DNA from: Candidatus Hodarchaeaceae archaeon
GTDB taxonomy: Archaea > Hadarchaeota > Hadarchaeia > Hadarchaeales > Hadarchaeaceae
Direction of reading: 5' to 3'
Assembly: GCA_030018135.1 (NCBI GenBank)
Contig: JASEGJ010000020.1
Location: 375-20,112 of the forward strand
DNA length: 19,738 nucleotides
This document shows, piece by piece, positions 17,738 to 19,654 of this stretch (its first letter is position 1; each line of letters opens with the position of its first letter). A program made the position numbers and the translations under genes. A model generated the notes under the pieces. That model did not search any database, was not told where the DNA came from, and worked only from the letters and a program-made list of their open reading frames with translations.

Positions 17738-19075
17738 TTATGGAGTTAGGGCGAAAGTCGGCTTCAGAAAGACGTCCGGCCTAGACCGGGGGGTAATCTC
17801 TCCGGCCAAGTTCTCCTGCATGAGCTCAGAAACTTCCTCTAAGTCCTTGGTCTTGCCGAGCGACCACATCAGCTTCGCCCAGGCAACTTCGGGCAACATG
17901 TCCCCCCCGGGGATTACCCCGAGCCGGAGGAGATCCCGGCCCGTCGAGTATACCTTCATGTCGACACGCCCCCAGAGGCACTGCGAGGTCATCACCACAG
18001 GCACCCCCCTACTCACAGCGAGCTTGATCCCATCGAACAAGGACTCCGGAACATGCCCTAACCCAGTTCCCTCAAGCACAATGCCCTTGTCCCCAGCTTT
18101 AAGCACGCCCCTGATGACGCTTGAAGGCATCCCCGGCGTGACCTTCAGAAGGGCCACTCTCGGCTCGAATTTCCCCTCCACCTTCACCCTGCCCTTTGGC
18201 TTCCTGCGGTTGTAATCTTCGCGGAACAGCTTCAGCTCGGTACCCCGAACCATCCCAAGCGGGATGTCGTTGATGGTTTGAAAGGTATCGCGCCTGCTCG
18301 TGTGACACTTTCTAACCTTGGTGCCCCGGTGGATGAGGCAAAAGTCATCTTCGGTAGAGCCGTGCATCACGACGCAAACCTCAGCGATGTCGGACTTGCC
18401 CGCGACGGCGACGGCGCCGATTAAGTTCAGCGCCGCATCGCTGCTGGGCCTATCGGAGGAGCGCTGCGACCCGACCAATACGACCGGTCTAAACAGGTCC
18501 TTGAGCATGAAGCTCAGCGCGGCCGCGGTGTAGCCCATGGTATCCGTGCCGTGCGCGACTACGACCCCATCGGCGCCAGCGTTCAACTCCCTAGCTATGG
18601 CCCTGCCGATCCTCACCCAAAGCTGCGGGGTCATGTTTTCGCTGAATACGTTGCAAACTTCCACGACTTTGATGTTTGCCAAATTCGCCAGCTCCGGCAC
18701 GGCGCTGTAGATCTCTTGGGCGGTGAAAGCTGGATAAACGGCCCCGGTCCTGTAGTCGACGCGGCATGCAACCGTACCGCCAGTTCCCATGATCGTGACA
18801 TCCGGCTTCGCCGGATCGCGTTTTATTTCGAGCGGCGGCAAACCTAGCCTCGGCATTTTTCCCCCCTCAACTTTGCTGATTTTTACTCCTTTAGATATCC
18901 TGATCCCGACGTTGTAGCCGCTCGCCAACTTTACGACGAAATGATTTGGGTCGCCCAGCTCGGTTCGGGGCATCAAAATTCCCTCGTAAACCCTGCCCGC
19001 CTTCTCGATTTTTACGCGGTCCCCAACTTCGATCGAGAGCGATTTCAACAGCTTCAAGGCTTTACCTCTGTACAT
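17738..19075 (-). CDS. gatD: Glu-tRNA(Gln) amidotransferase subunit D
   Basis: GatD is the glutaminase partner of GatE and frees ammonia from glutamine (or asparagine). It is an L-asparaginase-like enzyme of 445 residues with an N-terminal GatD-only domain (1-90) that docks on GatE. Catalytic residues are all visible: the threonine of GTGGTVA (97-103), HGTDT (175-179, Thr177-Asp178) and Lys254 in GTKVRKCHTSRRDTF. GSQRSSDRPSSDAALN (202-217) is the conserved asparaginase stretch. ATG 19075 is about 37 nt from the TATA box at 19108. It forms the gatD-gatE unit; the two genes are sometimes separated in other archaea. Confidence 0.96.
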   Translation of the reverse strand: MYRGKALKLLKSLSIEVGDRVKIEKAGRVYEGILMPRTELGDPNHFVVKLASGYNVGIRISKGVKISKVEGGKMPRLGLPPLEIKRDPAKPDVTIMGTGGTVACRVDYRTGAVYPAFTAQEIYSAVPELANLANIKVVEVCNVFSENMTPQLWVRIGRAIARELNAGADGVVVAHGTDTMGYTAAALSFMLKDLFRPVVLVGSQRSSDRPSSDAALNLIGAVAVAGKSDIAEVCVVMHGSTEDDFCLIHRGTKVRKCHTSRRDTFQTINDIPLGMVRGTELKLFREDYNRRKPKGRVKVEGKFEPRVALLKVTPGMPSSVIRGVLKAGDKGIVLEGTGLGHVPESLFDGIKLAVSRGVPVVMTSQCLWGRVDMKVYSTGRDLLRLGVIPGGDMLPEVAWAKLMWSLGKTKDLEEVSELMQENLAGEITPRSRPDVFLKPTFALTP

Positions 19076-19107
19076 CCAAGCGCCTATCTGGAACTCGTGT
19101 GCGCATG

Positions 19108-19115
19108 CTTAAATC
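19108..19115. promoter_or_regulatory. Bidirectional TATA box between gatD and the CARF-like gene
   Basis: CTTAAATC is close to TATA consensus on both strands. Leftward it is about 37 nt from the gatD ATG; rightward it predicts transcription from about 19138, inside the small leader frame before the CARF-like gene. Confidence 0.42.
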
Positions 19116-19131
19116 AATAACCCCTGCAATA

Positions 19132-19173
19132 ATGGCTTGGAAAATGCTTATGACCCTCAACCACCGATGTTAA
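19132..19173 (+). CDS. Leader reading frame before the CARF-like gene
   Basis: ATG at 19132 reads MAWKMLMTLNHRC and stops at TAA 19171-19173, 13 nt before the next ATG. If transcription starts near 19138, the in-frame ATGs at 19144 or 19150 would be used instead. AGAGGGG between the frames gives the downstream gene its own SD. It may be chance. Confidence 0.22.
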   Translation: MAWKMLMTLNHRC

Positions 19174-19186
19174 GAGGGGTTGGAAG

Positions 19187-19654
19187 ATGAAGATCCTTAT
19201 CCAGGGCTTGGGAGAGGTGCCTATACCTATCGAGCTCGCACTCAAGAAGGAGAAACCAGATGTCACTTACATCCTGTGCAACAAATACCAGATGAAAAAT
19301 GTCGCCAAATCCGCGGGGTATAAAAAATCATCCAGTGCCGTAATCGAGGAAGTGGCAAAGAAGACGGGCACAAAAGTCGTGTTTCAGTTGTGCGATATTT
19401 TTAGTCTCCAATCCGTCAGCGATGCAATCGGGCAGGTAATAAAGCAGGTCAAGCCAAATGACGAAGTTGTCATAAACTACACGGGGGGCGCGGCCAGCGT
19501 GAAATTGCTCCTCGGCGCCACGGCGGTCGTCCTGTCGAGATTTTTATCCATTAAGATCATCTACGCGTTAAGGCTCGACGATGGCAAGGAAGTTGTTCGC
19601 GACCAGACGGAGGAGCTGCAGGAAATCTTCAAACAGCTCTACGAGTTCTTTTAG
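19187..19654 (+). CDS. CARF-like Rossmann-fold protein
   Basis: This 155-residue protein begins with a Rossmann strand and turn (MKILIQGLG). A middle stretch of alternating strands and helices follows, then DEVVINYTGGAASVKLLLGA (92-111). An acidic residue, hydrophobic strand and N-x-TGG turn followed by a helix is the ligand-binding pattern of CARF domains, which sense cyclic oligoadenylates in type III CRISPR defence. Related folds occur in HFX_2341-type regulators. No HEPN, wHTH or nuclease domain follows, so this would be a solo CARF protein: a cyclic-nucleotide sensor, a ring nuclease or an unrelated ligand sensor. The TGG core is clear, but I cannot verify the family. ATG 19187 follows AGAGGGGTTGGAAG. 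It is divergent from gatD. Confidence 0.55.
   Translation: MKILIQGLGEVPIPIELALKKEKPDVTYILCNKYQMKNVAKSAGYKKSSSAVIEEVAKKTGTKVVFQLCDIFSLQSVSDAIGQVIKQVKPNDEVVINYTGGAASVKLLLGATAVVLSRFLSIKIIYALRLDDGKEVVRDQTEELQEIFKQLYEFF

Follow-up and report, generated by a model that had tools for sequence, protein, structure and literature searches.

Within the window (the whole stretch of 19,738 nucleotides analysed here), a gene for a small standalone CARF-domain protein lies divergently to gatD; the features of the locus are collected in Table 1. CARF stands for CRISPR-associated Rossmann fold, the sensor fold through which an alarm molecule is detected in CRISPR immunity. The ORF runs from an ATG start to a TAG stop and encodes 155 aa, its translation including EVVINYTGGAASVKLLLG. 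The helix of residues 103–116 starts directly past this motif, as a preliminary description of the DNA had noted when it pointed to an INYTGG segment followed by a helix. The gatD gene also adjoins the orthologues of the CARF gene in two related genomes (G005 and G009). The protein of the G005 orthologue is 86% identical to that of the window, and 8% of the nonsynonymous sites differ between the two genes as against 78% of the synonymous sites (pN 0.08, pS 0.78). Therefore, the ORF is coding and is under strong purifying selection. No effector domain was found in the ORF or in the AlphaFold2 model: the CARF domain alone takes up the 155 aa, and the protein stops at residue 155, past the last helix of that domain.

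Table 1. Features of the gatD–CARF region, with positions in the window
Feature	Position	Strand	Evidence
gatD	17738..19075	-	Pfam GatD_N + Asparaginase; synteny
Intergenic region, 111 bp, between divergent gatD and CARF gene	19076..19186	.	Sequence reading
TATA-like CTTAAATC, candidate element only	19108-19115	+	Sequence reading
Standalone CARF-domain protein gene (P0001), 155 aa	19187..19654	+	PDLC01794 profile, AlphaFold2 model, fold matches, purifying selection vs G005 orthologue
Motif I loop past strand 1, residues 7-12, G-L-G-E-V-P	19205..19222	+	Alignment, column counts
Residues 69-73, C-D-I-F-S, past strand 3	19391..19405	+	Alignment, column counts
Motif II, residues 97-103, N-Y-T-G-G-A-A	19475..19495	+	Alignment, column counts
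Helix 103-116, invariant G110, near-invariant L107 and L109	19493..19534	+	Alignment, AlphaFold2 model

Profile and fold comparisons identify a CARF1-type protein

The protein was matched by the PADLOC profile PDLC01794 ('CARF1--CARF') with an E-value of 2.2e-40 and 136 bits, over residues 1–152 of 155 and profile positions 2–145 of 168, with no further domains, and the same profile matched all 26 aligned relatives. Weaker PADLOC matches were obtained with many Csx1, Csm6 and Can profiles. In Pfam, the best match was HFX_2341_N (PF19810; E 1.8e-5, 25.6 bits), which is below the gathering score of 30 bits, and two further matches were weaker than this; NCBIfam gave a weak match to the CARF model TIGR02710 among others. 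No significant CARF match was obtained with HMMER against PDB sequences, the CARF domain being seen only by profile and fold comparison.

An AlphaFold2 model of the monomer, built with the 26-member alignment as input, reached a mean pLDDT of 94.8 and a pTM of 0.89. When Foldseek was run with this model, all matches listed (the top 50) were CARF proteins, the best with an E-value of 1.6e-7. Likewise, all 50 entries listed by VIA-align were CARF proteins (best Z 15.8, rmsd 2.0, 122 residues); those listed were led by Can2, Csm6 and Card1 (Z 14–16), with ring nucleases at Z 11–13. These results, resting on profile and model, indicate that the 155-aa protein is a genuine single-domain CARF protein of the CARF1 type. 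The earlier assignment as a solo CARF-like protein is thus confirmed, and an unrelated Rossmann protein as best structural match, which would have spoken against it, did not appear among the fold matches listed.

The pocket loops are conserved and the motif II lysine is replaced

The usual form of CARF motif II is [ND]-x-T-G/S-G-T-K, in which the lysine contacts cyclic oligoadenylate (cOA). Pocket columns were counted over the 26 aligned relatives; motif II is gapless there, and the alignment was made by sequence and not by coordinates. Residues L8, G9, P12, C69, F72, S76, N97, G101, G110 and Y126 are invariant. Within motif I, Glu or Phe prevails at position 10 and Val, Ile or His at position 11 (E and V in the window protein). 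Residues 69–73 have the family form C-D/N-x-F-D and are probably the base-recognition loop of the CARF pocket. In motif II, G101 is followed by A, S, T or G at position 102, and position 103 is Ala (20 relatives) or Gln (6) in 26 of 26, never Lys or Arg. More distant archaeal CARFs behave differently: of the 16 in which the motif could be read, 15 have the lysine, as GTK. The preliminary description had held the lack of a conserved pocket against a CARF assignment. The pocket loops are in fact conserved; what is replaced, without exception, is the lysine that usually binds cOA. Judging from CARF crystal structures, helix 103–116 is probably the dimer-interface helix; its invariant G110 is consistent with this role, the model itself being that of a monomer.

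Cas10 is not detected in CARF-bearing genomes

Matches to the CARF family were found in 16 of the 22 genomes of the GTDB family to which the window belongs, in 1–6 copies or remnants each. Copies that are not intact are included in these counts: G018 and G020 hold fragments, G011 has one that is split, and an extra one in G009 carries a frameshift. A search with the family profile added no genome to those already found with the single sequence. Cas10 was then sought with three models, which detected Cas10 in known genomes used as control rows. No cOA-synthesising Cas10 was detected in the window's genome, and the count over all CARF-bearing genomes of the family was 0/16. The only genome of the family with Cas10 was G007 (1/22), which is without a solo CARF. 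All of these are draft MAGs of 56–93% completeness, in which the absence of Cas10 from a single genome is weak evidence, but its joint absence from 16 genomes is not. The claim that no CRISPR locus lies near the gene held, and extends to a lack of detectable Cas10 in this genome and its CARF-bearing relatives. Only one type III locus came to light in the family; it lies in G007 (L050:1423-11489) and encodes a divergent Cas10 of 867 aa and a CARF9-HEPN Csx1.

In 372 other archaeal genomes, Cas10 (counted as frames of at least 500 aa) was found in 45 of 79 CARF-positive genomes versus 20 of 293 CARF-negative ones (odds ratio 18, p 3e-21). Since these outside matches to the CARF profile are mostly weaker and lie in longer proteins, they were taken as relatives and not as members of the family.

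Cas1 was found in 7 of the 22 genomes. The CRISPR loci of G009 and G012, both CARF-bearing, were examined and resemble type I (Cas3c/5c/8c/7c and Cas7b/Cas3b, respectively). The only Cas1 in view in the window's genome is a C-terminal fragment of 111 aa with unrelated genes beside it (L051:9838-10173, on contig G000:C40), apparently left over from a CRISPR locus.

Paralogues occupy fixed housekeeping addresses

The CARF genes recur in a small number of contexts, with neighbours of which several were confirmed by Pfam and others recognised by eye: gatD with PEPCK or an aminotransferase; threonine synthase with an HD hydrolase; thiI with TBP and a hexapeptide protein; ABCE1 with pantothenate/CoA genes; and a MinD-like gene with a DUF835 sensor. 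A maximum-likelihood tree groups the copies by address (ABCE1 100/100, minD 100/99, thiI 98/95, thrC 84/77), and those linked to gatD/PEPCK fall into a single clade together with one relocated paralogue. At least five paralogous CARF lineages can be told apart, each of which keeps to one fixed housekeeping address, and tree and synteny together look like the outcome of old duplications after which the copies descended vertically. The gene is dispensable, because it is missing from some genomes, and fragmented or frameshifted copies occur in G018, G020, G011 and, as the third copy, in G009.

Several arrangements were observed at single loci. The frameshifted copy of G009 stands second in a tandem, next to the gatD-linked copy (L060:9537-10493, contig G009:C13), and two intact copies stand in tandem in G002 (L059:2508-3450). 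At gatD/PEPCK-type addresses in G018 (L047:1618-1752) and G020 (L048:7179-7310), only the last 44 or so CARF codons are left, as a decaying remnant. In the ABCE1-linked group, a conserved protein of 82–107 aa is encoded directly upstream on the same strand (L074:9969-10292, L076:8478-8732, L045:8742-8996, L073:9298-9546); its gene overlaps the CARF gene in two cases, and it has no Pfam match (checked for L074). This protein is a candidate partner of the CARF protein. In the threonine synthase group, a conserved protein of about 190–230 aa is encoded divergently to the CARF gene (L063:6063-6635, L064:8741-9424, L065:9624-10226, L062:1906-2478); it has no Pfam match (checked for L063) and may have a C-terminal winged helix.

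A proposed CARF sensor uncoupled from type III CRISPR

We propose, with a probability of about 60%, that these proteins are a solo CARF family passed on vertically in a single family-level archaeal group and uncoupled from type III CRISPR, acting as dimeric sensors of a ligand that is probably a nucleotide, and probably not canonical cOA, through a partner. The proposal builds on the CARF fold seen by profile and model, the missing effector, the replaced lysine, the undetected Cas10, the fixed addresses and the purifying selection. The protein would homodimerise through the helix past the TGG motif, and a small ligand, probably a nucleotide, would occupy a pocket that spans the dimer axis. We infer nucleotide binding because the N-Y-T-G-G and C-D-x-F-D loops are retained. 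As the protein has neither an effector nor a DNA-binding domain, signalling would occur in trans, the ligand-bound or free state being passed on by contact with a separate partner.

A cOA bound in the canonical manner is probably not the ligand, since none of the copies retains the lysine and Cas10 went undetected, and the loss of the residue that usually grips the alarm molecule makes a different cellular job probable. A non-CRISPR job had been suggested for this gene from its place in a housekeeping region; the distribution makes it plausible, with Cas10 undetected in CARF-bearing genomes and the housekeeping addresses conserved. Cyclic di-AMP is a candidate ligand because the window's genome has a gene for diadenylate cyclase (PF02457, present in 16 of the 22 genomes). 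The same idea was raised by the authors of a study of HFX_2341, a related archaeal regulator that is CRISPR-independent (PMC11434293). However, the cyclase is also present in the CARF-less genomes G003, G007, G008, G013 and G019, so no specific link between the two follows. With the SMODS model for CBASS-type cyclic nucleotide synthases, nothing was matched in the window's genome. Five other genomes had weak matches, among them frames of about 470 aa that may be CCA-adding enzymes.

Alternatively, the protein may still bind cOA, as a sponge or sensor for transient type III systems of mobile elements or viruses. Although the CARF scaffold and the pocket loops are conserved and one member of the GTDB family, G007, does have a type III system with a CARF9-HEPN protein, that same genome is without the solo CARF, the cOA-contacting lysine is lost from every copy, and the copies sit at chromosomal housekeeping addresses. 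IMG/VR gave no viral relative, in a scan that depends on conserved peptides and can overlook remote relatives, and a viral origin of the gene was rejected on this result. We consider the sponge or sensor unlikely.

The protein could also be a Crn1-like ring nuclease that degrades cOA, either as a safeguard or against cOA of invading elements; the preliminary description had pointed out that single-domain CARF proteins include ring nucleases. It has the size and the single CARF domain of a ring nuclease, and its fold matches include Sis0455 (7z55, Z 12.6), Sis0811 (7pq3, Z 12.2) and Sso2081 (7ygl, Z 11.4). Crn1, however, is marked by Gly-Thr-Ser in motif I, Gly-Arg-Lys in motif II and a helical insert or lid (PMC10018336). 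In the 26 relatives, motif I keeps its G9 throughout, but Thr and Ser are not conserved at positions 10 and 11, and Gly-Arg-Lys is absent from all 26; no C-terminal helical insert is seen among the secondary-structure elements of the AlphaFold2 model. Moreover, Cas10 went undetected in the 16 CARF-bearing genomes, and the nearest fold matches listed are the effector CARFs Can2, Csm6 and Card1 and not Crn1. On motifs and genome content, a ring nuclease was therefore rejected as the leading reading and seems very unlikely.

An equally poor case can be made for the view that the protein is left over from an ancestral type III system, has no function now and is drifting to loss. The remnants and frameshifted copies in G018, G020, G011 and G009, and the genomes that miss the gene, would fit such a decay, but the strong purifying selection, the synteny conserved across genera and the repeated duplication and retention argue for use, and relatives at the order or phylum level with Cas10-like matches (G023, G024, G027) have no solo CARF. 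Least probable of all is a Rossmann-like enzyme with no sensing role, such as a nucleotide phosphodiesterase or a dehydrogenase: Cys69 and Asp70 are conserved and could be catalytic, but the sequence matches to short-chain dehydrogenases are weak and partial (residues 50–101) and none appears among the fold matches listed, all of which are CARF, so that a dehydrogenase-like protein was rejected.

CARF domains are taken as a signature of cOA defence signalling, and defence-finding tools label them accordingly. A vertically inherited CARF family of several paralogues, present where Cas10 goes undetected and invariably devoid of the lysine that grips cOA, shows that this label can mislead. Going beyond the sensor proposed above, it is conceivable, though we hold it only tentatively, that a CARF sensor family of at least five paralogues was freed from CRISPR and re-tuned to another cellular messenger in one archaeal lineage. 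If true, this would be a CARF-based signalling network without cOA and without a defence role. The solo CARFs also offer compact single-domain proteins for testing other CARF ligands.

Comparison with known systems

Of the CARF proteins compared, Crn1 (Sso2081, Sis0455) resembles the solo CARF in its fold (Z 11.4–12.6) and its single effector-less domain, but the solo CARF lacks the GTS of motif I, the Arg-Lys of motif II and the helical lid, and no type III system was found in its genome. The closest matches to the CARF core among those listed, Can2, Card1 and Csm6 (Z 14–16), differ in that the solo CARF has no nuclease domain and its motif II lysine is replaced. From type III CRISPR ancillary proteins in general, it is set apart by having no Cas10 co-occurrence (0/16 genomes) and no fused effector. 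RtcR, whose CARF domain binds tRNA fragments, provides a case of a CARF with a non-cOA ligand (PMC7790460); it is a bacterial sigma-54 activator, whereas the solo CARF is archaeal. Another precedent is HFX_2341 (Crr), a vertically inherited, CRISPR-independent regulator of haloarchaea (PMC11434293). Its N-terminal domain (PF19810) gave the best, sub-threshold Pfam match, and the two have in common vertical inheritance and presence without CRISPR; in contrast, the solo CARF is without the C-terminal wHTH DNA-binding domain, and the PF19810 proteins of G034 and G072 keep GGTK. With the single-domain CARF1--CARF proteins of PDLC01794, the solo CARF shares a near-full-length profile match and a lone CARF domain.
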